NCBI GenBank assembly: GCA_017303805.1
Contig: JAFLBQ010000001.1
Span: 744,001 to 808,000, forward strand
Direction of reading: 5' to 3'
From: Cytophagales bacterium
GTDB taxonomy: Bacteria; Bacteroidota; Bacteroidia; Cytophagales; Cyclobacteriaceae
DNA length: 64,000 nucleotides
In this document: piece after piece, positions 10,803 through 42,387 of the stretch
How positions within the stretch are numbered: the first letter of the stretch is position 1
Layout of the letters: each line of letters opens with the position of its first letter
The notes under the pieces: model-generated
Told to the model about the DNA's origin: nothing
Seen by the model: the letters and a program-made list of their open reading frames with translations, nothing else
Databases searched by the model: none
Made by a program: the position numbers and the translations under genes

Positions 10803-10828
10803 TCATTAATAAAAATTTTGAACTTGTC

Positions 10829-11911: not shown

Positions 11912-11949
11912 AGACTGATTTCGTTTTAGGGTTTAAAGTTATCAGTACC

Positions 11950-11984
11950 GATCAATCCGGCTTCGGCCGGGTTGATCTAATTTT
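11950..11984 (+). terminator. Intrinsic terminator with UUCG tetraloop between import genes and xylanase
   Basis: A 12-bp stem (11950-11961 with 11966-11977, one G-U pair) closes a UUCG tetraloop in the very stable C(UUCG)G context. It is followed by TAATTTTAATTG. It lies 38 bases after the binding-protein stop and 26 before the GH10 start. It probably lowers enzyme mRNA relative to susCD, or protects the 3' end of the susCD message. Confidence 0.8.
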
Positions 11985-12003
11985 AATTGTTTAATTGTTC
12001 AGC

Positions 12004-13269: not shown

Positions 13270-13270
13270 A

Positions 13271-15856: not shown

Positions 15857-15860
15857 AACC

Positions 15861-16940: not shown

Positions 16941-16945
16941 AGATT

Positions 16946-18022: not shown

Positions 18023-18024
18023 CT

Positions 18025-19935: not shown

Positions 19936-19940
19936 TAAAA

Positions 19941-19971
19941 TTAGATGATAGCAACCCGGTTAGTATTTTTG
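19941..19971 (+). promoter_or_regulatory. Internal promoter of the LacI-family regulator gene
   Basis: TATTTTTG at 19964-19971 is a perfect Bacteroidota -7 box (TAnnTTTG). TTAG at 19941-19944 is a weak -33 element at 19-base spacing. Just upstream of the -7 box, GCAACCCGGTT (19951-19961) resembles the core GCAATCGGTT of the susC operator with one extra base, a possible autoregulatory site. The start codon at 19994 gives a leader of about 17 bases. Confidence 0.6.
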
Positions 19972-19993
19972 TTGAATTTAAAATTGCGCACAC

Positions 19994-21016: not shown

Positions 21017-21020
21017 GCCT

Positions 21021-23174: not shown

Positions 23175-23192
23175 AATTTTTTATTTCTAATT

Positions 23193-23936
23193 ATGACTCA
23201 ACAAAGAATTGCAATTGTAACCGGGGGCGGTTCCGGACTTGGCCTTGCCATCGCCAAAAAATTAGTCTGTGAAAACATACATACGATTATAGTTGGCCGC
23301 GATGCGGTGAAGTTAAACAAGGCCTTGGCGCAAATCGGATCTCCAGCCAAGGCGATTTCATTCGATCTTACACAACTTTCAGAAATTCCGGCTTTTGTAA
23401 AATCTGTTGTAGCTGAGTTTGGCCGGATTGACATTCTGGTGAACAATGCCGGTATCAATCAAAAGAAAAGTGCGTTGGAAGTAAGCGATGTGGAATTCCA
23501 AACAATTCTAACTACCAATTTAACAAGTGTATTTTCCCTTACCCGCGAAGTGGCAAAGCACATGGTGGCGGTGCAAAGTGGAAGTATAGTGAATATCAGT
23601 TCCATGGCCTCACATTATGGCATCCCCGGTGTGGTTTCTTATACCGCTTCCAAGGCAGCCGTTGAGGGGATTACAAGGGCACTGGCTGTTGAATTATCTA
23701 CGCACGGTGTGCGTGTAAACTGTGTGGCTCCCGGATTCATCGAAACCGAGATGTCGGCCAAGGCGTTGAATGGCGACCCGACCCGGAAGCAAAAAGTATT
23801 GGCCCGCACACCTATGGGAGTATTGGGTAAACCTGAGGATGTAGCCAAGGCAGTTTATTTTTTAGCGAGTGAGGAAGCAAATTTTGTTACAGGTAGTATT
23901 TTGCGGGTAGATGGCGGCAACGCCATCGGTTTTTAA
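23193..23936 (+). CDS. SDR-family oxidoreductase, probable D-mannonate oxidoreductase (fructuronate reductase)
   Basis: A 247-residue classical short-chain dehydrogenase with TGGGSGLG cofactor loop (10-17), NNAG (84-87), catalytic Ser136/137 and Tyr150-x3-Lys154 (YTASK), and the C-terminal VTGSILRVDGG. Taken alone it could be a FabG-like or KduD-type enzyme. Its position 18 bases after GH67 and 9 before uxuA makes reduction of fructuronate to mannonate the most likely reaction; SDR-type UxuB proteins are known in other bacteria. Function is inferred from context. Confidence 0.85.
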   Translation: MTQQRIAIVTGGGSGLGLAIAKKLVCENIHTIIVGRDAVKLNKALAQIGSPAKAISFDLTQLSEIPAFVKSVVAEFGRIDILVNNAGINQKKSALEVSDVEFQTILTTNLTSVFSLTREVAKHMVAVQSGSIVNISSMASHYGIPGVVSYTASKAAVEGITRALAVELSTHGVRVNCVAPGFIETEMSAKALNGDPTRKQKVLARTPMGVLGKPEDVAKAVYFLASEEANFVTGSILRVDGGNAIGF

Positions 23937-23945
23937 ACGAAGGCT

Positions 23946-25112
23946 ATGATTGCAATGGAACAAACCATGCGGTGGTACGGGCCGCAGGATGCTGTGAAGT
24001 TAAGTGACATTCGCCAGGCAGGCTGTAGCGGTGTGGTTACTGCGTTGCACCACATACCGGTTGGTGACGTATGGCCGGAAGATGAAATACTGAAAAGGAA
24101 AAATCTGATTGAGGCAGCCGGAATGACCTGGACCGTTATTGAAAGTTTGCCCGTACACGAAGAAATAAAGAAACAGAAAGGTGATTATAAAAAATGGATC
24201 GCCAACTACAAACAAAGTATCCGCAATGTGGCCGCCTGTGGTTTGCGTGTAATCACCTATAACTTTATGCCGGTGCTGGATTGGTTGCGTACTGATGTAG
24301 CCTACACATTGCCTACTGGCAGCAAGGCTTTGTATTTTAACCGCGCAGCATTTGTAGCATTCGATTTGTTTCTGCTTAAGCGACCCAATGCGCATACCGA
24401 CTACGCGCCACACGAAGTAGATAAGGCTCAAAAATTTTTCGATGCCGCTACCGAAGCCGAACGGAAGTATTTGTTTGCAAATTGTTTGCTTGGGTTGCCC
24501 GGCAGCGATGAAAGTTTTACGCCTGAACAAGTATTAACAGCCCTGAAACAATATGCCGACATCGATGCCTCTAAACTAAAGCAACACTTGCATTTCTTTT
24601 TGCAGGAAGTAATACCGGTTGCCGAGGCTGCCGGGGTAAAGTTAGCCATTCACCCGGACGATCCGCCCTACCCCATGCTGGGCTTACCCCGTGTGGTTAG
24701 CACCGAAGCCGATGCAAAAGAGTTACTGCAAGCTGCACCCTCACCGGCTAATGGTTTATGCTTTTGTACGGGCTCTTTTGGGGCGCGTGCGGATAACGAT
24801 CTGGTAGGGATGATTCAACGCCTGGGCGACCACATTCATTTTTTGCATTTGCGTAATACCAAACGCGATGCCGAAGGGAATTTCTTTGAAGCCGACCATT
24901 TAGGGGGCGATACCGATATGCCAGCCGTAGTGAAAGAAATTTTACTGCTGATGAAACGCAGGCAAGTAAGTATCCCCATGCGCCCGGATCATGGCCACCA
25001 GATGCTCGATGATCTGACTAAGAAAACATATCCGGGTTATTCGGCTATTGGCCGGTTAAAAGGATTGGCCGAATTGCGCGGACTGGAATTAGGAATTAGC
25101 AGGATGTTGTAG
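23946..25112 (+). CDS. uxuA: Mannonate dehydratase
   Basis: 388 residues. The N-terminal [31 protein letters not shown], with GDVWP following it, is diagnostic of UxuA, as are [32 protein letters not shown] and the metal ligand block [10 protein letters not shown] near the end. It dehydrates D-mannonate to 2-keto-3-deoxygluconate in the cytoplasm. It closes the locus. Uronate isomerase (UxaC) and KDG kinase/aldolase must be encoded elsewhere. It is convergent with the beta-barrel gene at 25231-26160; I see no clear terminator in the 118 bases between. Confidence 0.95.
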
Positions 25113-25230: not shown

Positions 25231-26160
25231 TTAAAATCTTAACATATACTCCAGGTTAACGATCAAACTTCTGGTCAGTCCATCGGGTCGGGCATCGCGT
25301 ACAACCAAAGGAGTTCCCATGTTCAACTGAAGCGAGGATGCTTTGCTGATTGCGAAATCAAAATACAGGGTTGCATTAAGAGTAAGTCCTTTTGAGTTAG
25401 CGATTTCCTTTACAATACCTGTTGCATCTGTGTATTTGTCATTTCTTAAATGATAGATTGGTAATAAGCTTGGTGTGAAGCTAAAACTCTTGCCGAGAGG
25501 CATAGGGTACGAAATGCGCAAAAGCATGTCGCCCTCTCTTTCAAATTTATTGGTGGACTGAAAATCCTGTAAGGGCGAATTGGCCGGATACTGTTCTGCC
25601 AGAAATCTATTCTTGTTTTGAGTAAGCGGTTGCTGATACGCCCATACGAATTGCCATCTGTTTATTAAGTAGCCTGCGCCTACAATCAAATCTACTGTTC
25701 CAAGGCTCGATTGGTAGTCCATTGGTAACGGCAAATTGTTTTTCTCTTTGTTGCCATCGGCAAGTGGTAGCTTTACTCCGGCAGATAGAGTGAATCTTGA
25801 AGTTGATGAATAATTGAAGTTTAGAAACAGGTCAGACAAGTTAAATACTGAAATGCCATTACCGGATTGCGACAAGGTTGTAATTTTTACATCTGCACTC
25901 AATTTAGTAGTGAGCCGTTGATTTAACTCAAAGTAACTTCCGAAAATATTTATAGAATTATCAGCGCTACCAAAATTAATACCGGCTTTCAATTTGCGGG
26001 TAAATGTCAGGCTATCGGCATGCGGTTTAAAACTGTTGAGTGTGCAAAACCCTGCATCGCTGCAACCCTGGCCAAATAGATGAGTGGTTAATACCATTAT
26101 CAAAAAGCTAAAGCTCACAATTTTTATAACCGATTGATAACCTGTTTTCATTGCTTTCAT
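25231..26160 (-). CDS. Outer-membrane beta-barrel protein of unknown function
   Basis: 309 residues with a signal peptide (about 1-30, ending HLFGQ); a second ATG at 26151 would shorten it by three residues. Alternating hydrophobic/polar strands and the C-terminal LEYMLRF with terminal Phe indicate an outer-membrane barrel of about 10-12 strands. It resembles the transporter-like or phenol-degradation MetA barrel proteins, but I cannot name a family with certainty. It lies 115 bases downstream of the DUF1593 gene on the same strand and could be the last gene of the esterase cluster or an independent unit. Confidence 0.7.
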   Translation of the reverse strand: MKAMKTGYQSVIKIVSFSFLIMVLTTHLFGQGCSDAGFCTLNSFKPHADSLTFTRKLKAGINFGSADNSINIFGSYFELNQRLTTKLSADVKITTLSQSGNGISVFNLSDLFLNFNYSSTSRFTLSAGVKLPLADGNKEKNNLPLPMDYQSSLGTVDLIVGAGYLINRWQFVWAYQQPLTQNKNRFLAEQYPANSPLQDFQSTNKFEREGDMLLRISYPMPLGKSFSFTPSLLPIYHLRNDKYTDATGIVKEIANSKGLTLNATLYFDFAISKASSLQLNMGTPLVVRDARPDGLTRSLIVNLEYMLRF

Positions 26161-26275: not shown

Positions 26276-27781
26276 TTAATCATTCACCTGAAGTACAACG
26301 CGAGCATAGCGCGTAAGAGCCGGAGAGCCGGTATCGGTTACGGAAACAACAAGATGAATATCATCTCCGGCTTTTGCATCGGACGGCACCACAAACTTCA
26401 AGGTTGGTTTCGCAGGGTCGTTCAATACCACTTTTCCAGAGTATGAATCTACTTCATCGTACTGCCACCACCTATAGTTAAGCTTATTTCCATCCGCATC
26501 GGTTGCCTTGGCCTGAAGCACAATTTTACTGCCCCGCTTTACATTCAATCGGTGTGCGTGTTTTAACCGTACCACCGGTGGATGATTGGCCTCATTATAA
26601 GGCTGCACGCACCACGCGGCCCGCGCAGCAAATTCATTTTGAAGTACCTCTACCCACCGGGTTTGCGGGTAAGCTTTATCCATTTGTTGTGTGTACGGAT
26701 TATAGTCCATAGCCAGGTCGCCATCTTCCCACCGGTTAGGCGCGGTGGCTGATTGCACCAAACGGCCACCCCACCCGCCATAATGCGGATTGTTCAGGTT
26801 ATCCAACCCTGCATCTATCAAATGAAAGAAAGCCGGTGAGTCGCCTTCGGAAATAAAATCGTATTGCGTAAAACTACCCCACATGTTGCTCTTTATCTTT
26901 TCCGGGTCGCTGTAGATATCTTCAATCTCGCCAGCAGGCGGATTGCCATCGCCATAGCTATAATACATTTTTAACAACGGGCCATTGTTGTTGAGTATGG
27001 GGCCCATAAACTTGCCTTCTAAATAAGGGTGCAACTCCTTCGGTACGGCTCGCTTCCAGAAGTAAGCAAAGCACCAAAACTGGTTGGCGTTATAATAAAT
27101 TTTTATGTCAGGCCAGTTTACAGAAATGTATTTGCGGTAAGTTGCATCCTGATCGAGAATGGCGTAGATGATCGCCTTGTTGCAAATTCTTTTGTAGATT
27201 GTCTTCCATTGCGGAGTGTTCTTGTAGTGATCTTCAATCGATTTTAATGAACGTGCGATTGTATTGGTGCCGCCCCATACTTGCAGGTAAAGCGGCTCCG
27301 GGTTAGAATCCAATAATTTAGCTTTTATAAAATCCGAACCCTCGGTATCCTTTTCCATTTCGCCTTCAAAATCAATATTACCGATGCGGGTAACCGAACG
27401 CAGGTATTCAGCAGTGGGAAAATCAGGCGAATGCAATTTCAGGTTTGGTTGCACTTTTCCGTAGGCATCAATCAAATTGTAAATCCATTGTTCACCTGGC
27501 CAGCGCAGCTCCGTACGTTCGCCATACATTTGTTTTGTCATTTCCATTTCGGAAATAAATTTTGTACCCTTGCCATCGCCTTTGTAATGCCACTGCGAAC
27601 TGCTGATGATCAACCCTTCAATACTAAATTCATTGGCATGCAACAAAAGCCGGATAAAGGAATCCACATCGTCCAACTCACCATCGGTAGTAACAATGGT
27701 ACGGGGCTTTGAAGTTTGGGCAAATGCAGTAGCAGCACACAACACTAAAGTAAGTACGCAGAGAAGGTTAAGATTTCGCAT
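26276..27781 (-). CDS. DUF1593 (Sde182-like) nucleoside-hydrolase-like secreted protein
   Basis: 501 residues from ATG 27781, chosen because it begins a clean signal peptide (MRNLNLLCVLTLVL, ending AFAQ) 10 bases after the upstream stop. Residues about 25-310 resemble the inosine-uridine nucleoside hydrolase fold, with the calcium-binding Asp cluster TDGELDDVDSF near the N-terminus. About 405-501 is the Ig-like C-terminal domain (KATDADGNKLNYRWW). The family is named after the Saccharophagus protein Sde182, described as cellulose binding; its reaction is unproven. In this cluster it may cleave an N- or O-glycosidic bond of an exported substrate. Confidence 0.85.
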   Translation of the reverse strand: MRNLNLLCVLTLVLCAATAFAQTSKPRTIVTTDGELDDVDSFIRLLLHANEFSIEGLIISSSQWHYKGDGKGTKFISEMEMTKQMYGERTELRWPGEQWIYNLIDAYGKVQPNLKLHSPDFPTAEYLRSVTRIGNIDFEGEMEKDTEGSDFIKAKLLDSNPEPLYLQVWGGTNTIARSLKSIEDHYKNTPQWKTIYKRICNKAIIYAILDQDATYRKYISVNWPDIKIYYNANQFWCFAYFWKRAVPKELHPYLEGKFMGPILNNNGPLLKMYYSYGDGNPPAGEIEDIYSDPEKIKSNMWGSFTQYDFISEGDSPAFFHLIDAGLDNLNNPHYGGWGGRLVQSATAPNRWEDGDLAMDYNPYTQQMDKAYPQTRWVEVLQNEFAARAAWCVQPYNEANHPPVVRLKHAHRLNVKRGSKIVLQAKATDADGNKLNYRWWQYDEVDSYSGKVVLNDPAKPTLKFVVPSDAKAGDDIHLVVSVTDTGSPALTRYARVVLQVND

Positions 27782-27791
27782 ATCCAAAATT

Positions 27792-28091
27792 TTAAATTTC
27801 CATTTCCAGTAACGCATAACTCAACGTTTTGCCGTGGGCATCCAGCACCCACGAGGTGGTAACTCCTGTGTTCAGGGCCTGCTCGCACACAAATAAAAGC
27901 GAAGCAATGTTGGGCAGTTCGTATCGCCTCACCTCGCCTTTTACAATTTCGTGAAGATGTTGCTTTACTTTCTGTACAGTAACCTTCTCACACAACCAGT
28001 TGTAGTCCTTCTCATCGTAAGGAATAAGCGATAAGGTGAGCGTGTTTCCTTTATCGCCAGCGCGGCTGTGCGCAACATCATACAGTTTCAT
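27792..28091 (-). CDS. AtuA C-terminal-domain-like protein (split partner)
   Basis: 99 residues, beginning YDVAHSRAGDKGNTL, the sequence found at the C-terminal domain of larger AtuA/DUF1446 proteins. Here it is a separate gene whose ATG overlaps the AtuA stop as ATGA, so both are made together and probably form one complex. In longer homologues the two parts are a single chain. No catalytic function is established. Confidence 0.82.
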   Translation of the reverse strand: MKLYDVAHSRAGDKGNTLTLSLIPYDEKDYNWLCEKVTVQKVKQHLHEIVKGEVRRYELPNIASLLFVCEQALNTGVTTSWVLDAHGKTLSYALLEMEI

Positions 28092-29410
28092 GTCGATTTC
28101 AAAATTACGTGGGGTTTCACTTTTTCGCGTGGCAGTAAGGTAGAGACGATGCCAATGGTTTCGTGCACATATTTACGCACCCCACCCCCGCCCGCGGGGC
28201 CGTTGGTGTACAAGGCTTCTACTTCTTCGCCCACCCGCGCTGCGTGTGCTGCCGTTCCTGCTTTGCCTGCAATCCGTAACCGCACTTCATACGGCTCGTT
28301 ATTTTTATGAAATTCATTTCCATGAACGGAGTTCATTCCGATCAGGTCAACGCGGAGTTCATGGAACACACCTTTCAATCGTTCTTTAACAATATTGCCC
28401 GCCAGCCGGGCTCTGCGTACTGCATTGTAACCGGCATACGCTATTTCACCTTCGCCTATAAAGCCGGCCTGGTAGCCCACACTCACTTTAAAAGTTTCTG
28501 GTCTGCGCTTGCCATCGCCCCTAGTTACACGCACCTCATCTTTACCTGAGGCTTGGAGTTTTACCAACGAGAAATCTGCAATAACATCGGGCGTAAAATA
28601 TTCGTAAGGGTTCACAACTTCATAAAGCAATTGTTCTTTTACTGTATCTAAGTTAATAAGGCCACCCGTGCCCGTCACTTTGGTTACTACTCCTTCCCCA
28701 TTGCTTGCCACTTCTAAGATCGGGTGCCCCAGATTCGCCATGTCAGGCACATCTTTTTTGCCCGGATCGGCATAATACCCACCGGTAACCTGGCCTGCGC
28801 ATTCCATCAAATGCCCCAACACCGTTCCTCGCCCCAACATGGCATAGTCATCACTGTGCCACTTAAATTCGTGCATCATGGGCGCAAGAAAAAGCGAAGG
28901 GTCAGCCACCCGGCCTGTGATAATAATCCCGGCATCAGATTGCAATGCCTCTTGTATTCCTTCGCTGCCCAAATAAGCATTGGCCGATACAAGTGGCCCG
29001 ACTGTAGTCAACGGTTTACCAGTTTCCAAACAAGGATCGTTTGGATTAATTTGAGCGAGCACATCATCTCCGGTAACTGCTGCTACGGTGATTGCAAGGT
29101 TCTTTTGCTTGGCAATTTCGAGTACCTTATCCAAAGCAGCCAGTGGGTTAGCTGCACCCATGTTGGTGATAAGCCGTACCTGCTTCCGCTTAAGTGGTTC
29201 AATTAATAATTCAATTCTGCGCTCCAGCAACGGGTCATATCCCAATAGTGGATTTTGTAGTTTTCGTTTTTGCGCCAATGCAATGGTGCGTTCGGCCAGG
29301 CACTCTAACACCAGATAGTCCAGCTTGCCGTTTTCAACTAATGTTAAAGCCGGATCCAACCGGTCGCCCGAAAAACCTGCACCACACCCAATGCGGATTT
29401 TCTCTTTCAT
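28088..29410 (-). CDS. AtuA/DUF1446-family protein (acyclic terpene utilisation AtuA-like)
   Basis: 440 residues from ATG 29410, which overlaps the stop of the transporter gene (ATGA). The family signature is MKEKIRIGCGAGFSGDRLDPA, followed by DYLVLECLAERTIAL, ITNMGAANP, GIIITGRVADPSLFLAPM, and GHLMECAGQVTGGYYADPG. It is cytoplasmic. AtuA is encoded in the citronellol/geranyl-CoA operon of pseudomonads but its reaction is unknown. Here there are no CoA ligase, carboxylase or acyl-CoA dehydrogenase genes, so a different pathway is likely. The neighbouring transporter suggests a carboxylic-acid substrate. Confidence 0.88.
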   Translation of the reverse strand: MKEKIRIGCGAGFSGDRLDPALTLVENGKLDYLVLECLAERTIALAQKRKLQNPLLGYDPLLERRIELLIEPLKRKQVRLITNMGAANPLAALDKVLEIAKQKNLAITVAAVTGDDVLAQINPNDPCLETGKPLTTVGPLVSANAYLGSEGIQEALQSDAGIIITGRVADPSLFLAPMMHEFKWHSDDYAMLGRGTVLGHLMECAGQVTGGYYADPGKKDVPDMANLGHPILEVASNGEGVVTKVTGTGGLINLDTVKEQLLYEVVNPYEYFTPDVIADFSLVKLQASGKDEVRVTRGDGKRRPETFKVSVGYQAGFIGEGEIAYAGYNAVRRARLAGNIVKERLKGVFHELRVDLIGMNSVHGNEFHKNNEPYEVRLRIAGKAGTAAHAARVGEEVEALYTNGPAGGGGVRKYVHETIGIVSTLLPREKVKPHVILKST

Positions 29411-30699
29411 AAGTGGATGGATCCTGTGAGCAACGCAACAAGAGTCATAACGAAGGTAGTCATCAAAGCCCACTTAAACACAAACTTTTGATGATCGCCC
29501 AGGTCAACTTCGCACAAACCAATTAATAAAAATGTTGATGCCGTGAGCGGACTTAACGGAAAGCCCACAGTCATTTGGCCTAATAGGGCTGCGCGGCCAA
29601 TCTCTAAATGGTTAATACCATAGTGTTGTGCGGCCTCGCTAAGCACCGGCACTATGCCAAAGTAATAGGCATCCGGTGTAAAAAGTAAACTGGAAGGCAT
29701 GCTGGTGAGGGCTGTTAACACCGGTAGAAAGTTTGCGTGCTGCTCAGGGATGAGGGCTACCAGGGTGGTAGCCATTGCGTCAATCATCTTGGTTCCGGTT
29801 AGAATGCCCGAGAAAATTCCAGCCGCGAAAATCATACTCGAAACCATAAAAATATTTGCGCCATGACTTTTAAGAACTTTCTGCTGATCGGCAAGCCTCG
29901 GAAAATTAATAAGCAACGCGAGGCAACTGGCCACCAGGAAAAGTACAGGCGTAGGTACCAGGCCCAACATCAGTACAACGATCAACGTAATTGTTAAAAC
30001 AGCATTAACCCAAATTAACCGGGGCCGCCTCAGTTGCTTTTGTTCTTCTGATAGCGAAGCGTGGTGATTATGCTGCAAGGTAGCCAACCCTAACCGCGCC
30101 CGCTCCTTTTTACCCAACCAATACGCCACCAACAACACCCACACAATTCCTCCCAGAATAGCGGGGATATTCGGATTGAAAATTTCCGGTGCAGTTGCAT
30201 TCATGGTAGCAATGGCTCGGGCTGATGTTCCCGACCAGGGCACCAAGTGCAGGGGACCAACACTTAAGGCCACGATGCCGGCCAATACCAGCCGGCTCAT
30301 TTTAAGTTCTTTGTAGATTGGAAGAAATGCTGAGATCACAATCATAAAGGTTGCCGTACCATCGCCATCCAGGTGCACTATCATGGTTAAGATGGCCGTA
30401 CCCATTACTACTTTTAACGGATCGCCTTTAACTTGCTTGATAATAAATGCGATTACCGGATCGAAAAGCCCAACATCCAACATTATGGCAAAATAGAGCA
30501 CTGCAAAAACCAACAGGATTCCGGTAGGTGCAACTTGCTTCATACCGGCAAGCATCATGTCGGCCAATTCCTTCACGGGCACACCGGCAATCAGTCCAAA
30601 CACAACGGGCACCAGCACCAAGGCAGTAATAACCGACAAGCGCTTTGTTAAGATAACCGCCAGAAAAACGGCAATGGTTAGAAAGCCAAGTAAGGCCAT
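29407..30699 (-). CDS. CitMHS-family carboxylate (citrate-type) transporter
   Basis: 430 residues, nearly all membrane segments (about 11-12 helices), with the family features IVHLDGDGTATFMIV and LSVGPLHLVPWSGTSARA, and a polar central loop (about 195-215). CitMHS proteins carry metal- or proton-coupled citrate or related carboxylates across the inner membrane. The gene starts 6 bases after the CE1 esterase and overlaps AtuA by ATGA. It is the only transporter in the cluster, so the cluster substrate or product is probably an organic anion. Confidence 0.88.
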   Translation of the reverse strand: MALLGFLTIAVFLAVILTKRLSVITALVLVPVVFGLIAGVPVKELADMMLAGMKQVAPTGILLVFAVLYFAIMLDVGLFDPVIAFIIKQVKGDPLKVVMGTAILTMIVHLDGDGTATFMIVISAFLPIYKELKMSRLVLAGIVALSVGPLHLVPWSGTSARAIATMNATAPEIFNPNIPAILGGIVWVLLVAYWLGKKERARLGLATLQHNHHASLSEEQKQLRRPRLIWVNAVLTITLIVVLMLGLVPTPVLFLVASCLALLINFPRLADQQKVLKSHGANIFMVSSMIFAAGIFSGILTGTKMIDAMATTLVALIPEQHANFLPVLTALTSMPSSLLFTPDAYYFGIVPVLSEAAQHYGINHLEIGRAALLGQMTVGFPLSPLTASTFLLIGLCEVDLGDHQKFVFKWALMTTFVMTLVALLTGSIHL

Positions 30700-30705
30700 T
30701 GATTT

Positions 30706-31731
30706 CTACTTGAAAGAAAGATGATCATCGAAAAACGGCAACAGGTCATTCAACACGCGCCCATCTAAAGTCCAGATTTTATTGCCGTGATTTCCAATGT
30801 ACTCTTCTGCATAGTGATCTATTCCTAAGTTCTCCAACTGTTGGCTCAACATCCCGATTTGAACCGGGAAACGGGGTGCATCATTTCGGCCCCAATCCAT
30901 TTTTATTGCCTTAAGCTTGCGCAGATTATCAGCGTAGGCAGTAACCATGTGCACCGGCATGTTCTCGTGCCATTTGTCCAGCACCGATTGGTTGATAATC
31001 ATTTTATCACCTTCATAGGTGAAGGGCACATCGCAATAAAAAGGAGGCTTGTTAGGGTTTGGCGACCAAGCGCGGGCTACCGCTACCAATACTTTGGGGT
31101 AGTAGGTTTTCTTTAACTCTTCTACAGACTTAATGCGCGCTAACTCTCTATATGAATCGCTATTCGGGCCAAACTCTTTTACAAACGCCAACAACCCGGG
31201 GCTTAGTGCATACACTACACTGAACACCTCGGGGTACAACATTCCTAATTTAATGGCACCATAGCCGCCCATCGAGTGCCCCGCAATTCCCCGGCTCTCC
31301 CGATTTGCAATGGTTTTAAAATTCTTGTCAATGTAGTCAACTAATTCCTTTGAGTTGAAATCGGCCCAATTGCCGGTGAGCGAGGAATTCGTATAGAAGC
31401 TGCCTTCAAACAACGTGTAATGATCGGCTTGTACCAATATGAACGACCGGATTTTTCTTTTGCTGATACCGGCATCCAGAATCATCTTCATGTTGCTGTA
31501 AATGCTATCGGTACCCATGAAGCCATGCAGGTAGTAGATAACCGGAAATCGTTTTCCTGCCTGGTCATAATCTGGCGGCAGGTAAACAGAAACTTTTCGG
31601 TTAGGATTTTCACCACCCGTATTTTGCAACACCTTCGACTTCAACACAAAACTCACCACTTTTCCGGTGGCCTGTTGGGCAAAGCAATCGTAGGCGAGAA
31701 AAAAGATTACTACAACAAATAGTTTTCGCAT
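30706..31731 (-). CDS. CE1/esterase-D-type secreted esterase
   Basis: 341 residues with a signal peptide ending DCFAQ (about 19). The alpha/beta-hydrolase core shows the oxyanion segment VIYYLHGFMG (64-73) and nucleophile Ser153 in GHSMGG. An acidic residue and a late His (EEYIGNHGNKIW, about 315) would complete the triad. The family includes feruloyl and acetyl-xylan esterases (CE1) as well as S-formylglutathione hydrolases; the signal peptide excludes the last. It is encoded between three type-B carboxylesterases and the carboxylate transporter, so it probably cleaves an ester outside the cytoplasm. Confidence 0.87.
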   Translation of the reverse strand: MRKLFVVVIFFLAYDCFAQQATGKVVSFVLKSKVLQNTGGENPNRKVSVYLPPDYDQAGKRFPVIYYLHGFMGTDSIYSNMKMILDAGISKRKIRSFILVQADHYTLFEGSFYTNSSLTGNWADFNSKELVDYIDKNFKTIANRESRGIAGHSMGGYGAIKLGMLYPEVFSVVYALSPGLLAFVKEFGPNSDSYRELARIKSVEELKKTYYPKVLVAVARAWSPNPNKPPFYCDVPFTYEGDKMIINQSVLDKWHENMPVHMVTAYADNLRKLKAIKMDWGRNDAPRFPVQIGMLSQQLENLGIDHYAEEYIGNHGNKIWTLDGRVLNDLLPFFDDHLSFK

Positions 31732-31761
31732 GGTATTAAATTTTAATCGAATCCAGGCAGA

Positions 31762-33288
31762 TTATTTCTGTAAGGCTTCCAGAATTTGAAACTCGGTCTT
31801 AAATAAGCCCGGTTTCAAGGCCGGAGTAATTCCAAATTCCAGTATGCTTTGATCTGTGGCATTGTACGCGTTCCACGCTGGCAAGCCGGAGCCATTAGGG
31901 TTACCGGTTTTTACAAAATTGAGCCAATACGAGGACATCGATATTTCAACGGCCCGGTCAACATCTTTCCATGGCCGGTTCCATTTCGATAAGGTGTGAA
32001 GTGCAAAGGGAACTTCGGAAGTATGAAACGCTCCGTAGTTTGGAAAGTCCGGTTTATCGGTGGGTACATAACTGAATTGGTAGAGGTAGCTTTTACTTGA
32101 ATTATTCAACGCCCACAGGTGGTCGGCATAACCTGCAAAACTTAGGTTGCCTAATTTGTTTTGCGAACGGAGTGCTTCTTCATCGGATGAAGCTGGAAAG
32201 GCTTTCAAAAAGCCTTCCGCCTGGTCCTTGTAAGTTTCTACTGCCCAGGCTTTAAATTGCCCGGCACTCTTTGGTTGGCCTGTTAATGCGGCATCGCCTG
32301 TTACCCATCCGGCAATTAAATTAACATCGTTGTGTTTACGGGTTAAAAAAAGTGTGCCGAGATCTTCGGGCAACACATAGCCATCCGTAACCGGTGCAAA
32401 CGAGCCATATGGAAACGTACTTGCCAACTTCCAAACACTATCAGCCGCAAGCTTACGCAACGCATCAACCCCGGTTGCATTTACCTTTTGCGAAAGTGCA
32501 GTGCCGGTAACTTCCGCTTGGCTTAGCTTTTTCGAAAATCTGTTCATGGAAGCGCCACTGTGTGCAATCGCGCCACGAAACAATCCTTTCGATAAAGGCG
32601 ATGCCACCAATGCCTGCACACTGAACGAACCTGCCGATTGGCCAGCAATAGTAACTTTGTTCGGATCGCCACCAAAGCCAGCAATGTTTTCTTTAATCCA
32701 TTTTAATGCAGCCAGTTGATCCAACAACGCATAATTTCCCGAAGCATTCTTTCCTGATTCTTTGGTGAGGTCGGGATGCGAGAAAAACCCGAACACCCCT
32801 ACCCGATAATTGATGCTCACAAAAATGATTCCCTGCTTCGCCAATGCTTCGCCATCATAAACCGCACACGCGCTTGACCCGGAAACAAATCCGCCCCCGT
32901 AGATCCACATCAGCACGGGTAGTTTTTCTTTCGATGTTTTGGCCGGTGTCCATACATTAAGATAGAGGCAATCTTCACTCAGGGGTTCGGGCGGTGCAAT
33001 AAACTCTTCCGTCCACATGGCAAAAGGTGCCGGTTTATTTTGGTAGGGACTTGCTGAAAATTTATCGCATGTTAAAACTCCGGCCCACGGCTTTACAGGT
33101 TGCGGCTCCATCCACCGCAAATTACCAACCGGTGGTGCGGCAAATGGAATTCCTTTAAAAGATGTTATTAATCGGTCATTGGTCCTTACACCTTTAACTT
33201 TTCCATGTACCGTTGTGGCTTCAATTAATGCCTGTGCTTGCACCTGCAACGTGGAAAGTACAAGCAGACAAATTGAAATAAATCGCAT
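31762..33288 (-). CDS. Secreted type-B carboxylesterase (third of three)
   Basis: 508 residues, signal peptide to about 18 (QVQAQ). Motifs: FKGIPFAAPPVGNLRW, EDCLYLNVWTP, oxyanion hole GGGF (131-134) and nucleophile Ser218 in GQSAGS; the late triad His falls in AFHTSEVPF. Length is normal for the COesterase family. It is exported and may be periplasmic or released. It shares the general layout of the two preceding esterases but is clearly diverged from them, which argues for different ester substrates rather than recent duplication. Confidence 0.9.
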   Translation of the reverse strand: MRFISICLLVLSTLQVQAQALIEATTVHGKVKGVRTNDRLITSFKGIPFAAPPVGNLRWMEPQPVKPWAGVLTCDKFSASPYQNKPAPFAMWTEEFIAPPEPLSEDCLYLNVWTPAKTSKEKLPVLMWIYGGGFVSGSSACAVYDGEALAKQGIIFVSINYRVGVFGFFSHPDLTKESGKNASGNYALLDQLAALKWIKENIAGFGGDPNKVTIAGQSAGSFSVQALVASPLSKGLFRGAIAHSGASMNRFSKKLSQAEVTGTALSQKVNATGVDALRKLAADSVWKLASTFPYGSFAPVTDGYVLPEDLGTLFLTRKHNDVNLIAGWVTGDAALTGQPKSAGQFKAWAVETYKDQAEGFLKAFPASSDEEALRSQNKLGNLSFAGYADHLWALNNSSKSYLYQFSYVPTDKPDFPNYGAFHTSEVPFALHTLSKWNRPWKDVDRAVEISMSSYWLNFVKTGNPNGSGLPAWNAYNATDQSILEFGITPALKPGLFKTEFQILEALQK

Positions 33289-33299
33289 AGAAGTTGAAG

Positions 33300-34949
33300 T
33301 TAGATTGCGGGGTCAGGTACTATCGCCAAAAAATCTTTATCGTGATGTTGCCTGATTTCGCAGGTATTATCAAAGATCATGGTAATGCCGTTGTCAGGCT
33401 TGTATGCACCCCACTCAGGTATGCCTTTATGATTCGGATTTCCGGTGTAGGCAAAGCTAATCCAGGCGCGGCTTACTTTGTCGGCTAACGCATACGCTTC
33501 GGGTGTGCCGCCTGTCATTTGCTCGCAGCGTGCAATATTGTCGAATACAAAAGGTATCTCCATGCAATGGACTGATTTGTAGTTGCCATCCAGCACAGGC
33601 GATTGCCAGGTGAACAAATACATATACACCGGTGCCGCGGAGGCAGATTTTATTTCAGCCATCTTTAAAGCGCCTTTGCGGAACATGGCATCCACATCAA
33701 TTAAGTCTGTTGGTTTGGTATCGCCCGGGTAGGCTTTCTTAACAGCTGCTACAAAGTCATCGGCCTTATCGCCATACTGACGCTTGATGTGCGCCATCAC
33801 AGAATCCAGCGAAGCATTGCGCAACTGCGGCATGAACAACGAAGTCATGAATTCGTTTTTGGTAGAGCCAATCATTACCGGAATATTGGCCGAGATGGCC
33901 TGGGCTTCGGGTTGCGTTGGTTGGTAAGGTAAAAACGTGCCGTCCAATACGGGGCCCCAGCTTAAACCAAATCTTCCAAACTGTTGCCCTTCGGCCCGCA
34001 GTTGGGCCATTACTTTTGCAATTGCTTTTTTTCCGGCTGCGGCTAATACCGGGAATGGTACCTTTTGTAAAGAATCAACTTGTGTTGGTTTAAGTTTTAA
34101 CTCTTCCAGCACGGCTGCCCCAATGCGTTGGGTGTTTTCATTACTGTGGAAGCTTAATCCCAAACCACCGCTTTGAATCACAGCTTTGTGAAATAGTCCT
34201 TTTGCCGAAGGTGCATTCAAAAGTGTATTCACTTTTCCGCCACCACCAGATTGGCCAAAGATTAACACATTGTTCGGGTCGCCACCAAAGTTGGCAATGT
34301 TGGCTTTTACCCATTGCAGTGCCGCTACAATATCCAGAATACTGTTATTGGCCGAAGTTTTATACTTATCGCCATAGGCCGATAAATTTAAAAAGCCGAT
34401 AATGTTTAAGCGATGGTTAATGCTTACCACCACCACATCGCCTTTGCGTGAAAGATTTTCACCTTCGTACGAAGGTAACTCGATTGATGAACCGGCAGTA
34501 TGGCCACCACCGTGCAACCACACCAACACGGGCCTTTTCTTTTCGCCTGCGGGTTCACCTTTAATAGCCGGTGTCCAGATGTTAAGGCGTTGGCAATCTT
34601 CGTTGGCATAACCCCAGTTGTGATCAAATAAAAATTCCGACTCATCATTAACGGTAGTAGTTGGATCTACTAAGGGTGCTACGGGCCCGTACGTCATGGA
34701 ACTGCGCACTCCCGGCCACGGTTTTACTTTTTGCGGGGGCATAAAGCGCTCGGCCTGTGCGTATGGAATTCCTTTGTAAATAAAAATTCCATTGTGGATA
34801 TAGCCCCGCACTTTACCGGCTTCGGTATCAGCTAAAGCGATAGACTCTCCCGCCAGCAAGGGCGTTGGGTTAATTTTCGGTTTTTGTTCGCACGCGGTGA
34901 ACAACACCGCACTTGCCAATAAGAGTAAAGTTGATTTTATGATTTTCAT
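33300..34949 (-). CDS. Lipoprotein type-B carboxylesterase (second of three)
   Basis: 549 residues. The lipoprotein signal ends at Cys20 (LFTAC), so this one is membrane anchored, unlike its two relatives. The nucleophile elbow is FGQSGGGGK with Ser234, instead of the usual G-x-S-A-G-S; the oxyanion loop is HGGGH. VHCMEIPFVFDN carries the triad His. The Ala-to-Gly change in the elbow and the HGGGH loop set it apart as a subtype. It lies 11 bases upstream of the 31762-33288 gene and 29 downstream of the 34979-36592 gene. Confidence 0.9.
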   Translation of the reverse strand: MKIIKSTLLLLASAVLFTACEQKPKINPTPLLAGESIALADTEAGKVRGYIHNGIFIYKGIPYAQAERFMPPQKVKPWPGVRSSMTYGPVAPLVDPTTTVNDESEFLFDHNWGYANEDCQRLNIWTPAIKGEPAGEKKRPVLVWLHGGGHTAGSSIELPSYEGENLSRKGDVVVVSINHRLNIIGFLNLSAYGDKYKTSANNSILDIVAALQWVKANIANFGGDPNNVLIFGQSGGGGKVNTLLNAPSAKGLFHKAVIQSGGLGLSFHSNENTQRIGAAVLEELKLKPTQVDSLQKVPFPVLAAAGKKAIAKVMAQLRAEGQQFGRFGLSWGPVLDGTFLPYQPTQPEAQAISANIPVMIGSTKNEFMTSLFMPQLRNASLDSVMAHIKRQYGDKADDFVAAVKKAYPGDTKPTDLIDVDAMFRKGALKMAEIKSASAAPVYMYLFTWQSPVLDGNYKSVHCMEIPFVFDNIARCEQMTGGTPEAYALADKVSRAWISFAYTGNPNHKGIPEWGAYKPDNGITMIFDNTCEIRQHHDKDFLAIVPDPAI

Positions 34950-34978
34950 CTGTTAGTTTTTTGAAACGAGGTGTTTAA

Positions 34979-36592
34979 TTATTTTGGTTTATTCATCCGG
35001 TCTAAAAACCAATAGCGGGCGTCATCGTACTTTACAGCTTTTGATTCGGTATCCAGAATCATTACCGGTGGTGTTTTATCATTAGCGTGTGCAGCCGGCC
35101 ATTCCGGTAATTTTTCACCATTCGGGTTTCCGGTTTTAATAAAGTTGGCGAAGTAATTTAGCATCGTGTCTGATACTTTGTAATCATCGGCAGTCCAGGC
35201 ATAATCCTTTACCAGGTGCAGGTTGCCCATGCAATATTCTATTTCGCACGCATGCGGTGCACCAATGGCTGCAGGCATTTGCTGGCCGCCTTGTTGTGTG
35301 CCACCGGCAAAGCCGGAGGTTAGATTTTTATCTACTAAAGGTGGCCGCAGTTTGCTGTAGAGATAGCGGTACACCGGCTGCGAACTGTTTTGCCGGTGCG
35401 CATCAAACCACTTCCATGTACTGTACGAGATAAACCGATCGGAGGCCAGGTTGGTAGCAGCCCACTCCACTTCTTTGGCATTGCCATGCGGATATACTTT
35501 CAAGGCTTCTTCCCAATCGTTGGGGTAAGCTTCTTTTACTTTTTTAATCAGTGTTTCTTCATTGATTGGACCTTGCGTAAAAGCCATACCGGGAATTTCT
35601 GCGGAGTTCCATCCTAATAATAATGGAACCTGTGCCTGCTCTTTGGCATTGAATGTTTCGAGCATGGGTTTGGTGAAGAAATACCCATCGATTACCGGTG
35701 GGAAACCGAACCGTTTGGATTCCACATACGCTTCGTATAAATCGCGGGTAGATGCCGCACGCATCTGCGCGACCGATGTGAAACCCGCATTTTTTGCAAA
35801 CTCGGCACCGGTCTTTTCTGCATCGGCTAAGGGAACGGCAGCGAGCGCACTTATGCCCGAACCACTTTCTCCAATAGCACCGGCAATCAACTTCCGCGAA
35901 AGCGGGGACACCATTTGAGCACTCACGGAAATGGATCCTGCCGATTCACCGGCAATGGTAACTTTCTTGGGATCGCCACCAAAGGCTGCTATGTTCTTCT
36001 GAACCCACTGCAACGCAAAAGCCTGATCGAGATAGCCCCAGTTGCCGGATGCTTTGTACGGAGTTTCTTTGCTCAACTCGGGATGCGCAAAGAAACCAAA
36101 CAATCCCAGTCTGTAATTAACCGTTACTACTACAATTCCTTTCTTGGCCATGCTGGCACCATCGTAACGCGGCTCTGAGCCATCGCCTGCCACAAACCCT
36201 CCGCCATAGAAATATACCAGTACAGGAAGCCCGGTGGTATTCTTCTTTGCTGGCGTCCACACATTCAGGTATAAACAGTCTTCGCTTATGCCATCCGACC
36301 GCGAGGCCATATCGCCAAACACTATTGCCTGCACGGCACGCGGCCCAAATTTTTTTGTTTGCTTAACACCCGTCCAATTGTCCAGCGGTTGTGGTGCCTT
36401 CCAACGTAAGTTGCCTACCGGAGGCTTTGCAAATGGAATTCCATGATACACCTGAAGTCCGGATTGGGTGTCGTACAACCCTTCAATAATTCCGTTTTCA
36501 ATTTTAGTCTGAATGGCAAAGCCATTGTTGCCTTGCGCCCGGGTTAAACCGGTGGTGGCAAGTACAAACAGCAAGAGTGTGAAGTATTTCAT
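34979..36592 (-). CDS. Secreted type-B carboxylesterase (first of three; cluster leader)
   Basis: 537 residues from ATG 36592; an upstream in-frame start would run through the inverted repeat and remove the signal peptide (ending LTRAQ, about 20). Motifs: YHGIPFAKPPVGNLRW, EDCLYLNVWTP, oxyanion GGGF and nucleophile Ser217 in GESAGS; APHACEIEYCMGN holds the triad His. It is the first gene of the minus-strand cluster that runs to AtuA-C and DUF1593. Its start codon lies inside a perfect inverted repeat shared with the divergent Nudix regulator, so this whole cluster is likely under that regulator. Confidence 0.92.
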   Translation of the reverse strand: MKYFTLLLFVLATTGLTRAQGNNGFAIQTKIENGIIEGLYDTQSGLQVYHGIPFAKPPVGNLRWKAPQPLDNWTGVKQTKKFGPRAVQAIVFGDMASRSDGISEDCLYLNVWTPAKKNTTGLPVLVYFYGGGFVAGDGSEPRYDGASMAKKGIVVVTVNYRLGLFGFFAHPELSKETPYKASGNWGYLDQAFALQWVQKNIAAFGGDPKKVTIAGESAGSISVSAQMVSPLSRKLIAGAIGESGSGISALAAVPLADAEKTGAEFAKNAGFTSVAQMRAASTRDLYEAYVESKRFGFPPVIDGYFFTKPMLETFNAKEQAQVPLLLGWNSAEIPGMAFTQGPINEETLIKKVKEAYPNDWEEALKVYPHGNAKEVEWAATNLASDRFISYSTWKWFDAHRQNSSQPVYRYLYSKLRPPLVDKNLTSGFAGGTQQGGQQMPAAIGAPHACEIEYCMGNLHLVKDYAWTADDYKVSDTMLNYFANFIKTGNPNGEKLPEWPAAHANDKTPPVMILDTESKAVKYDDARYWFLDRMNKPK

Positions 36593-36617
36593 TATTGTCT
36601 CAATTTGTAACAATAAT
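36591..36617. promoter_or_regulatory. Inverted-repeat operator between esterase cluster and Nudix regulator
   Basis: ATTATTGT (36591-36598) and ACAATAAT (36610-36617) are perfect 8-bp inverted arms with an 11-base spacer, placing their centres 19 bp apart. The left arm overlaps the esterase start codon. The right arm overlaps TATTATTG (minus strand, 36618-36611), one base from the TAnnTTTG -7 consensus. A protein bound here would block esterase transcription. The adjacent Nudix-type regulator is the natural candidate. Confidence 0.55.
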
Positions 36618-36668: not shown

Positions 36669-37364
36669 ATGGCCAAAAAGAGCTATCTGCCTCATATCGC
36701 GTACGATTCAGTGATTTTCGGCTTTTCGGATGGCGAACTGAAAATTCTGATTATGGAATACCACAATACCGGCTTGTTTGCATTGCCGGGTGGATTTGTG
36801 CGCACTGACGAAAATCTTAATGATGCTGTTTTGCGCGGACTGAACGAACGCACAGGGCTTACCAATATTTATCTGGAGCAGTTCTATACGTTTGGCGATC
36901 TGAGCCGGTTTAAGCCTGAAGTAATGCGCACCTTACTGGAAGCCAACGGCATAAATGCAGATGGCGAATACAAGTGGATGCTGGATCGGTTTATTACCGT
37001 AGCGTACTATGCGCTCATTAATTACAAAGATGTTACCCCCCGGCCCGATGCACTTTCGGATTCGTGCGAGTGGTACCCGGTAAAGAAGTTACCCAAACTG
37101 ATTCTGGATCATAAGTTGATTGTAGAAAAAGCTATTCAAACGCTGGGTGAGAATTTAGATCGTAAGTTGGTGGGCGGAAATCTGCTGCCAAAAAAATTTA
37201 CTATGAATGAACTCCAGAAAGTGTACGAAGCCATTTTGAGTACCAAGCTTCGCAGAACCACCTTTCAGCGCAAGATGTTGGCTGCTGATGTATTGAAGCG
37301 CCACGAAAAGCAATTTTCAGGGAAGGCACACAAAGCCCCGTACCTGTACAGTTTCAAAAAGTAA
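36669..37364 (+). CDS. Nudix-domain transcriptional regulator (NrtR/AraR-like)
   Basis: 231 residues from ATG 36669, chosen because the N-terminal MAKKSYLPHIAYDSVIFGF is typical and a promoter box lies just before it. Residues about 10-140 form a Nudix-like fold (ALPGGFV..DENLNDAVLRGLNERTGL). The Nudix box is degenerate (RGLNERTGL in place of RExxEExG), as expected for a sensor rather than a hydrolase. About 155-231 is a winged helix (FTMNELQKVYEAIL..RRTTFQRKM). Bacteroidetes relatives regulate arabinose or xylose use; NrtR itself regulates NAD synthesis. Divergence from the esterase cluster, with the inverted repeat between, indicates local control. Confidence 0.9.
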   Translation: MAKKSYLPHIAYDSVIFGFSDGELKILIMEYHNTGLFALPGGFVRTDENLNDAVLRGLNERTGLTNIYLEQFYTFGDLSRFKPEVMRTLLEANGINADGEYKWMLDRFITVAYYALINYKDVTPRPDALSDSCEWYPVKKLPKLILDHKLIVEKAIQTLGENLDRKLVGGNLLPKKFTMNELQKVYEAILSTKLRRTTFQRKMLAADVLKRHEKQFSGKAHKAPYLYSFKK

Positions 37365-37383: not shown

Positions 37384-37731
37384 TCACACTGATTCTCCAA
37401 AAGTAAGCAGGTTGTTGTCCGGATCGAGCACGGAAAATTCTTTTTGGCCCCACGGTTTTGTTACCAAGGGTTTGTAACAGGCTTTTTTCAAATCTGCCAG
37501 TTCAAACTCCTTTTCGATTTCGCTTACCCGCAAATAAATCTGTCCGTAATTCTCTTTCGGCTTTAGATCAGGAAATAAGAAGAAATGAATTTCGATCTCA
37601 TCTTTGCTAAGCATCAGGTAGTCGGGGTAATCGCCAGTACCGGCTACCTTAAACCCTAATTTCTCTATATAAAAATCTTTAGTAACTGTTTTGCTGCGCA
37701 TGGGCAACTTAGGACAAACCTTGTTAAGCAT
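37384..37731 (-). CDS. VOC-superfamily (glyoxalase/bleomycin-resistance-like) protein
   Basis: 115 residues with one betaalphabetabetabeta module pair: VTKDFYIEKLGFKV, YLMLSKDEIEIHFF, YGQIYLRVSEIE and FSVLDPDNNLLTFGE. Its size and the WGQKEFSVLDPDGN-like ending match bleomycin-binding-protein-type members. It would act as a dimer in the cytoplasm, either binding a small molecule or catalysing a metal-dependent reaction. The gene starts 2 bases after the solA-like stop, so it is the last cistron of that operon, and it converges on the Nudix regulator gene. Confidence 0.83.
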   Translation of the reverse strand: MLNKVCPKLPMRSKTVTKDFYIEKLGFKVAGTGDYPDYLMLSKDEIEIHFFLFPDLKPKENYGQIYLRVSEIEKEFELADLKKACYKPLVTKPWGQKEFSVLDPDNNLLTFGESV

Positions 37732-37733
37732 AC

Positions 37734-38885
37734 TTAATTTTTAAATCTTGTTGCACTTAAAAAGCCAATAGGTTGCGTTGTTCTTCCTTCCGTAGCAAGG
37801 TCGCACAGCACCTCGCCTACTACCGAGGCAAACTTAAACCCGTGCCCGCTAAAGCCACAGGCAATAATTACATCTTGCTGATTTGGTAAAAAGTCAATAA
37901 TAAAATTCTCGTCCGGAGTGTTGGTGTACAAACACGTTTTTGTTTGTTTAACAGATTCACAACTTTCCGGCACAAACCGCGTAATGGCTTTGGTAAGCTC
38001 ATCCACCTCCATGCTTGTTACTTCGCGGTTAACCTGGTTCGCAGTTGTTGACTTACCAGGATAATGATGGGCTGATTTTAATCCCGCAGGTTTCCCAAAC
38101 GTAGTTTCATCCAGCATCGGGAATCCATAGTACATGCCCGCATGTTCGTGATCGTCAATTAACCAACACGGAAATTTATTTAATTGAAATTGCGCAGGCT
38201 GCCGTGGTGTTGTCCATACTAAAACCTGCCGCGTAACATGTAAGTTGTTCGCCAAGCCCGGAAGAAAATCATTAGCCCAGGCACCTGCGGTAATAATCAA
38301 CTTATTGCACGAATAAGTTTGAGTGTCCGAGGTAACGCTGATCCGGTCTCCCTCCTGCTTCCAGCTAACAACTTTTTCATGGGTATGAATAGATGCTCCA
38401 AGATTAAGGGCTTGTTCTGCAAATGCACGGATGCATCGTTCGGGTGTTAGAAATCCGGCATCCGGTTCAAATAATACTTCGTAATCATCAGGTAGAGCAA
38501 ATTGTTGAAACCTGCTTTTAACTTCTGCTTTAGAAATTCGACTTACCTCAACACCATACAATTCTGATGATTCAATCACACCTTTAATGAGAATACTTTC
38601 TGGTTTGCCTGCATATAACAAGCCTGTTGGGAAATAGAACTGGTTATTGCATGCTGTTTCAAGTGCCTTCCAGTTTTGATAAGCGCGCTCCAGTAAGGGA
38701 ACATAATCGGAGTGTTCAAAGTATGCCTTGCGGATAATCCGGCTTTGACCGGCATGCGAACCCAACTCGTGGGTAAGTGTAAACTGTTCTAATCCTAAAA
38801 CTTTTATTCCTTTTTTGGCCAGGTAATAGCATGCAGCCGAACCCATAGAGCCTACTCCAAGCACTATAACCGGGAAGTGATTCAT
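37734..38885 (-). CDS. solA: SolA/MTOX-type flavin amine oxidase (N-methyl amino acid oxidase)
   Basis: 383 residues, the normal length. The dinucleotide loop is VLGVGSMGSAACYYLAKKG at the N-terminus, followed by HELGSHAGQSRIIRKAYFE. Cys318 in KTCLYTNTPDENFIID is the expected site of covalent FAD attachment, and CGFSGHGFKFAS binds the flavin. Enzymes of this family oxidise N-methyltryptophan, sarcosine or similar secondary amines and release hydrogen peroxide. It starts one base after the stop of the cytochrome gene. The substrate in this organism is not known; the symbol is used by family resemblance. Confidence 0.88.
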   Translation of the reverse strand: MNHFPVIVLGVGSMGSAACYYLAKKGIKVLGLEQFTLTHELGSHAGQSRIIRKAYFEHSDYVPLLERAYQNWKALETACNNQFYFPTGLLYAGKPESILIKGVIESSELYGVEVSRISKAEVKSRFQQFALPDDYEVLFEPDAGFLTPERCIRAFAEQALNLGASIHTHEKVVSWKQEGDRISVTSDTQTYSCNKLIITAGAWANDFLPGLANNLHVTRQVLVWTTPRQPAQFQLNKFPCWLIDDHEHAGMYYGFPMLDETTFGKPAGLKSAHHYPGKSTTANQVNREVTSMEVDELTKAITRFVPESCESVKQTKTCLYTNTPDENFIIDFLPNQQDVIIACGFSGHGFKFASVVGEVLCDLATEGRTTQPIGFLSATRFKN

Positions 38886-42264: not shown

Positions 42265-42387
42265 TGCTTTTTGGTTAGAAGCGAAAGATAAGAAGTTTAG
42301 GAATTTAAGTTTGCTTTGGGTGAATAACTTGTACAATTCAACGCTGGGTCAAGTCTGATTTCGATTATGGTTTTTCGAAAGACAGGT

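Follow-up and report, generated by a model that had tools for sequence, protein, structure and literature searches.

A conserved Bacteroidota operon combining exported-looking esterases, a CitMHS-family transporter and a predicted two-subunit AtuA/AtuA-C lyase

We analyzed a 64,000-nucleotide stretch (the window) of a Cytophagales bacterium genome (GenBank assembly GCA_017303805.1, contig JAFLBQ010000001.1, positions 744,001 to 808,000 of the forward strand) and confirmed within it a closely packed operon at 26276-36592, whose eight genes all lie on the minus strand in the 5'-to-3' order COE1, COE2, COE3, CE1, CitMHS, AtuA, AtuA-C and DUF1593 (Table 1). An earlier note, made from the sequence alone, had listed these genes and their families, and the positions, gene calls and family matches all agree with it. 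With the starts chosen here, the spacing along the operon is 29, 11, 30, 6, -4, -4 and -26 bases. The last value turns into a 10-base gap with an inner ATG of DUF1593 (27781, 501 amino acids), which is most likely the start; the longest frames in three relatives have 501, 501 and 519 amino acids. For AtuA the listed start was a GTG at 29473; the ATG at 29410, in an ATGA overlap with the CitMHS stop, is likelier.

Table 1. Genes and regulatory elements of the operon, with positions in the window and the supporting matches
Feature	Position	Strand	Evidence
COE1, exported type-B carboxylesterase, operon's first gene	34979..36592	-	COesterase 393 bits; GESAG at 215; signal-peptide-like start
COE2, type-B carboxylesterase, probable lipoprotein	33300..34949	-	COesterase 305 bits; GQSGG at 232; LFTAC start
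COE3, exported type-B carboxylesterase	31762..33288	-	COesterase 359 bits; GQSAG
CE1-type exported esterase	30706..31731	-	PF00756 94 bits; GHSMG
CitMHS-family carboxylate symporter	29407..30699	-	TIGR00784 522 bits, cut-off 260
AtuA, predicted large subunit of hydroxy-acid lyase	28088..29410	-	PF07287 503 bits; ATG start
AtuA-C (AtuA_ferredoxin), predicted small lyase subunit	27792..28091	-	PF23544 118 bits
DUF1593 / Sde182 nucleoside-hydrolase-like exported protein	26276..27781	-	PF07632 228 bits; PF21027 82 bits; DGELDD motif
Predicted operator TATTGTCTCAATTTGTAACAATA	36593..36615	.	23-base palindrome in front of COE1
Divergent NrtR/AraR-like Nudix regulator, impaired Nudix box	36669..37364	+	NrtR_WHD (PF21906) 64 bits, cut-off 27; ATG start judged from L008 sequence/relatives

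All four esterases have a GxSxG motif and a hydrophobic N-terminus, the latter in line with the export signals assigned to them in the earlier note and judged here by eye and hydropathy. COE2 is lipoprotein-like and the remaining three resemble ordinary signal-peptide proteins. The DUF1593 protein, which combines PF07632 (now named Sde182_NH-like) with Sde0182_C, also has a hydrophobic start, so that five proteins rather than four look exported. The closest solved chain to COE2 is a carboxylic ester hydrolase (5a2g), and that to CE1 is 8z91 ('Esterase'), followed by ferulic acid esterases. We rejected the esterases as a guide to the identity of the ester, as the nearest solved chains are broad carboxylesterases, the generically named 'Esterase' and ferulic acid esterases, and the plasmid relatives of COE2 are broad as well.

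Conservation was assessed in 62 same-genus genomes, comprising the window's own and 61 others. AtuA was found by sequence search in five of the 62, and the identical five carry a CitMHS above the TIGR00784 cut-off; weak matches of 21-24 bits, below that cut-off, occur in four more genomes and at another position in one of these five. The complete eight-gene set is present in the same order in three of the 61 other genomes (L007, L008 and L009), together with the divergent regulator and a gene for an FAD oxidoreductase (DAO) in each case and a glyoxalase gene in two. In a fourth relative (L010) the run CE1-CitMHS-AtuA-AtuA-C lies close to the end of a contig, and CE1 is preceded by another PF00756 esterase. 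Two checks had been set beforehand on the earlier note's claim of one system, conservation of the gene set in related genomes and the neighbors of AtuA in close relatives: the set is conserved as described, and CitMHS adjoins AtuA in all five same-genus genomes with AtuA. The shared eight-gene order is more than chance and supports one co-inherited unit.

Across the phylum, PF07287 (formerly DUF1446) matched 158 of 392 genomes, and we examined 21 named loci (L011-L031) found by AtuA search. CitMHS adjoins AtuA in 19 of the 21 (all except L028 and L031; in L029 it comes after AtuA-C), and AtuA-C is likewise present in 19, the stretches of L021 and L025 ending too early to show it; L031 carries it as a domain within the same protein as AtuA. 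Esterases were counted by tblastn with >40% coverage, the esterase of L026 having 24% identity but a Pfam match. An esterase gene lies immediately upstream of the core in 14 of the 21 loci: a relative of COE3 directly precedes CitMHS in 11 (L011, L013, L014, L016, L018, L019, L020, L023, L024, L025 and L027), and a PF00756-type esterase directly precedes the core in three (L015, L026 and L028, the latter without CitMHS). All 11 inspected of these 14 esterases have hydrophobic starts. The place given to the esterases as part of the system is thus borne out in part; a CitMHS-AtuA-AtuA-C core also exists without them, and they appear from these gene orders to be a frequent add-on to it.

To model the two AtuA components with AlphaFold2, we used 21 proteins for AtuA (the window's and those of 20 of the 21 named loci; predicted local distance difference test score, pLDDT, 90.4) and 15 for AtuA-C (pLDDT 84.5). 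At E <= 0.001 the AtuA model has a single PDB match, 9evf_A (E 4.6e-25, template modeling score 0.72/0.69), and the AtuA-C model likewise a single one, 9evf_B (E 1.1e-4, 0.67/0.63). The title of 9evf is 'Citramalate lyase - ADP - pyruvate complex', and its chains are named CmlA and DUF4387 domain-containing protein CmlB (B). A profile of the 21 AtuA proteins, with E. coli excluded, matches 9erq_A at E 5e-6; we used this value and dropped a PDB E-value of 5e-98 as circular, since the underlying alignment contained the E. coli protein. Nineteen alignment columns (start methionine not counted) are invariant across the 11 proteins compared, one of which is E. coli CmlA; these columns include E40, R167, D170, E203, C204, K244, Y263, E264 and K308. 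In E. coli O157 an AtuA and DUF4387 pair downstream of methylaspartate ammonia-lyase matches CmlA/CmlB; its genes (L070, 31934-33618) carry the labels ECs_0760 (3-methylaspartate ammonia-lyase) and ECs_0759 (acyl-CoA synthetase), which look wrong.

AtuA has been tentatively described in the literature as an acetate lyase, lyase assignments exist for Atu-type members too, and the citramalate lyase and Atu-type reactions are alike in removing acetate from a carbon with a tertiary hydroxyl. Because both models match 9evf and AtuA has this tentative role, we read AtuA/AtuA-C as an acetate-releasing lyase. The models suggest that the pair cleaves R-C(OH)(R')-CH2-COO- to release acetate and a keto product, with no coenzyme A (CoA) on the acetyl side, and with moderate confidence the AtuA step can be named as a lyase. 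The cytoplasmic processing proposed in the earlier note is supported, and the reaction, which it had left open, is now likely of this type. Activation by ATP is inferred from the ADP in 9evf, helped by a phosphotransacetylase gene that overlaps AtuA in Rhodococcus (L069, 3297-7661: AMP-ligase, phosphotransacetylase, AtuA and AtuA-C with 4-base overlaps), a gene run that suggests acetyl phosphate as the product.

The earlier note had set the operon apart from the citronellol (Atu) pathway, and this separation stands. Our scan of genes within and near the operon turned up none of the CoA ligase, biotin carboxylase and acyl-CoA dehydrogenase families, and among the main genes of 5599-44818, the stretch to which the search was limited, there was no geranyl-CoA carboxylase, acyl-CoA synthase or enoyl-CoA hydratase. 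We rejected the Atu pathway on the lack of its carboxylase, ligase and hydratase families around AtuA and on the position of this AtuA elsewhere in the tree, where it groups with other Bacteroidota AtuA proteins of the CitMHS kind. This was a quick tree of 47 AtuA proteins without bootstraps, the 30 phylum-search loci having been reduced to 12 beforehand; L031, L069 and 12 proteins from elsewhere in the phylum form one group whose branch measures 2.04 changes per column, and CmlA is very distant. On this tree the CitMHS label shows clustering, with 5 changes versus a shuffled mean of 15.1, and does not form a single clade.

The smaller CitMHS-AtuA-AtuA-C core extends to other Bacteroidota, to Bacillaceae, to Alpha- and Betaproteobacteria and to one haloarchaeon. 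A plasmid search returned 161 records with AtuA relatives, and we examined 14 loci from 40 listed. Four contain CitMHS-AtuA-AtuA-C (Spirosoma, of the Bacteroidota, Mycetohabitans, the haloarchaeon Haladaptatus and Roseomonas), five have AtuA-AtuA-C with another transporter, either tripartite ATP-independent periplasmic (TRAP; Salipiger and Loktanella), tripartite tricarboxylate (TTT; Microvirga and Methylobacterium) or ATP-binding cassette (ABC; Tistrella), and four are Atu-type with carboxylase or acyl-CoA genes (Rhodococcus gordoniae, Acinetobacter, R. opacus and Nitratireductor). The transporter-linked loci examined lack the Atu pathway's carboxylase, and in all nine of those from plasmids a separate small partner adjoins AtuA. 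The 'split AtuA' of the earlier note is thus not unusual, and the AtuA-C model matches subunit B of citramalate lyase. In Microvirga (L064, 5995-12586), AtuA, AtuA-C, a tricarboxylate-binding protein, a 3-hydroxybutyrate (3HB)-oligomer hydrolase and a tannase/feruloyl esterase lie in one run, the latter two genes being a second link to esterases. In Halalkalicoccus (L084, 2336-6663), genes for a dicarboxylate symporter, a degradative 3-hydroxy-3-methylglutaryl-CoA (HMG-CoA) reductase (TIGR00532 435 bits, cut-off 260; its gene overlaps AtuA), AtuA and AtuA_ferredoxin stand in a row, possibly a mevalonate breakdown route ending in acetate release; this AtuA is 45% identical to that of L069 and 35% to that of the window, and thus nearer the Atu type.

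This variety of transporters bears on a citrate pathway, in which citrate or metal-citrate, free or from citrate esters, would be imported by CitMHS and handled by AtuA/AtuA-C as a citrate lyase or in a side reaction. TIGR00784 is named for a citrate:proton symporter and the score is far above its cut-off, and citrate suits the general form of the lyase substrate. A special citrate lyase would be needless in a cell with a citric acid cycle, and related AtuA proteins pair with other transporter types, so that CitMHS does not fix the acid; we consider a citrate pathway distinctly unlikely.

Several observations weigh against the reading of the operon as an ester pathway with a CoA-independent lyase. 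The window's AtuA is 16-22% identical to CmlA, which sits on a very long tree branch, and the Pfam family of AtuA-C (PF23544) differs from that of CmlB (DUF4387). The likeness to 9evf rests on its title, its chain names and the fold match, and the ATP chemistry is a reading of the ADP ligand. CoA-linked genes lie near three of the transporter-linked AtuA pairs (Salipiger has CoA transferases, MaoC and a CoA ester lyase, Loktanella has a 3-hydroxyacyl-CoA dehydrogenase, and Methylobacterium has a thiolase and an acetate-CoA ligase on the opposite strand), which speaks against a wholly CoA-free pathway there, and the AtuA proteins beside the phosphotransacetylase of L069 and the HMG-CoA reductase of L084 are nearer the CoA-linked type than the window's. 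In seven of the 21 named loci (L012, L017, L021, L022, L029, L030 and L031) the core or AtuA is not immediately preceded by an esterase, a fucosidase-like gene taking that place in L021. The low identity to CmlA and the different small-subunit families would also suit a pair with the same fold that acts on a free carboxylate as an isomerase, hydratase or phosphotransferase. We regard such a non-lyase role as unlikely, with both subunits matching the same complex, 19 columns invariant in proteins that include CmlA, and the Atu-type members assigned as lyases too.

COE1 and the regulator are separated by 76 bases that contain the predicted operator, 18 of whose 23 positions are palindromic. The operator pattern matches exactly in six of 80 loci (L007, L008, L009, L013 (twice), L023 and L071, which is the window's own stretch); it was written after viewing the sites in the window, L007-L009 and L023 and one L013 site, where it matches by construction, whereas the second L013 site and the absence from other loci are not by construction. 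These six loci are the same six that show an NrtR-like gene, and two of the five relative loci belong to distant Algoriphagus. In L013 one site lies ~210 bases before a divergent COE1-like gene and the other before a regulator-COE3-CitMHS-AtuA run. With <=3 mismatches the pattern, drawn from the site itself, is expected 0.04 times in the window, and one of 100 shuffles reaches two matches. Across the whole genome the pattern has a single exact match and 12 places that deviate by 3 mismatches, versus 6 for a reversed-pattern control; we dropped a genome-wide regulon or second target, as the 12 places are about twice the control but each is 3 bases off.

The Nudix box of the regulator, GFVRTDENLNDAVLRGLNERTGL, has two glutamates replaced relative to the signature GX5EX7REUXEEXGU, as PMC4666351 reports for AraR proteins. 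The match to AraR_C is below cut-off (20.4 versus 23.8), and the NCBIfam equivalog for NAD-metabolism-type NrtR is not reached (100 bits versus a cut-off of 400). The earlier note had taken the regulator as a hint of a sugar- or cell-wall-derived ester; we find this hint weak, given the AraR_C score and the response of other NrtR-family members to ADP-ribose.

Taken together, we slightly favor the view that the operon is a self-contained unit for using the acid part of an ester by means of an AtuA/AtuA-C lyase. The three type-B esterases, CE1 and perhaps the DUF1593 protein would free a polycarboxylic hydroxy-acid outside the inner membrane, and CitMHS, judging from its family, would import it. 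AtuA and AtuA-C would then split R-C(OH)(R')-CH2-COO- to acetate (or acetyl phosphate) and R-CO-R', with ATP activation and with no CoA thioester on the acetyl side, as fold, subunit make-up, family chemistry and the ADP in the solved relative suggest. The NrtR-like protein would repress from the conserved palindrome before COE1 and be released by a small-molecule effector. The earlier outline of outside cleavage, CitMHS uptake and cytoplasmic processing is sound, on the strength of the export signals, the carboxylate transporter and the co-inherited unit, with the amendment that the esterases do not always accompany the core.

Our guesses at the acid are, in order, 3-hydroxy-3-methylglutarate (HMG), citramalate or another 2-alkylmalate, and citrate. 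CitMHS could plausibly carry HMG because HMG is citrate with a methyl replacing the central carboxyl, and in the flaxseed lignan macromolecule HMG serves as an ester linker, according to PMC6270660. The HMG-CoA reductase neighbor in L084 supports HMG-type chemistry for the AtuA family, though that AtuA is nearer the Atu type. Citramalate is the only candidate with an enzyme precedent found, and the deduced lyase chemistry would suit both acids alike. A CoA-transferase (PF01144) was dropped as a sign of acetoacetate use, being present in 50 of the 62 same-genus genomes and hence uninformative.

The acid might instead come from glucuronoxylan. A plus-strand glucuronoxylan locus (5599-25112), with a SusC/SusD pair (5599-10802), a TIG/CBM protein, two glycoside hydrolase (GH) family 10 genes, GH115, GH43, a SASA esterase, a LacI regulator, GH67, SDR and UxuA, ends 1.2 kb from the operon; L008 has glucuronate genes at a distance of 4.3 kb from its cluster, and ferulic acid esterases are among the nearest solved relatives of CE1. 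The operon could then be a side branch of xylan use, the esterases deacylating xylan or lignin-carbohydrate esters and CitMHS/AtuA handling a sugar acid. The xylan locus is not a fixed neighbor, as none of the window's xylan genes occur in the L007 and L009 stretches read; it lies on the other strand under a different regulator, the operon itself contains no SusC/SusD pair, sugar acids lack the tertiary hydroxy-acid form, and around the Bacillaceae core in L017 the few neighbors scanned comprise a sigma-54 activator and a chromate transporter. We consider this side branch very unlikely. Other minus-strand genes lie near the operon. The one that separates it from the xylan locus (25231-26160) encodes 309 amino acids that begin with a hydrophobic stretch and match no Pfam or NCBIfam family. 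The glyoxalase-like and DAO genes adjoin the regulator (37384-38885), and a gene at 38887-42336 encodes a 1149-amino-acid protein that contains DUF7133 and HEAT repeats and ends in cytochrome c.

The AtuA family is named after a terpene pathway and has been known chiefly from terpene breakdown, and the lyase reading gives it a testable role with a direct assay and explains the ~100-amino-acid hypothetical protein beside AtuA. If true, it would provide a route for bacterial use of ester acyl groups, none being described in the literature searched; that search, which left out most subscription journals and preprints, also found no description of this operon or of CmlAB chemistry. More tentatively, and less likely than not, AtuA and its ~100-amino-acid partner may represent a widespread class of lyases that are primed by ATP and take acetate off tertiary hydroxy-acids with no CoA on the acetyl side, as a transporter-lyase cassette passed between phyla, which in Bacteroidota, with exported esterases and an NrtR-type repressor, would make up a dedicated pathway for plant acyl esters (e.g. 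HMG-glycoside esters).

Four known systems resemble parts of the operon. The DUF1593 protein matches the cellulose-binding protein Sde0182 (PDB 2yhg) of Saccharophagus degradans at 1e-48. The regulator resembles BtAraR/XylR and NrtR of Bacteroidetes in its NrtR winged helix, the two replaced Nudix glutamates and a palindrome of about the length of the AraR-dimer footprint, but it lies beside no recognized arabinose, xylose-catabolic or NAD genes. With the Atu pathway the window shares the AtuA and AtuA_ferredoxin domains (31-37% identity to four Atu-type examples); there the two are often one fused protein (split in L069), whereas in the window they are two proteins, and Atu-type AtuA forms a separate tree group. 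CmlA/CmlB (9erq, 9evf) differs in its small subunit, DUF4387 as against PF23544 by sequence, though the AtuA-C fold matches 9evf_B, and in its setting, the E. coli pair lying in a glutamate mutase/methylaspartate operon with a dicarboxylate symporter gene and the window's AtuA beside neither glutamate mutase nor methylaspartate ammonia-lyase; in both, a large AtuA-family subunit is joined by a small one of ~100 amino acids, and each window model matches its own 9evf chain.

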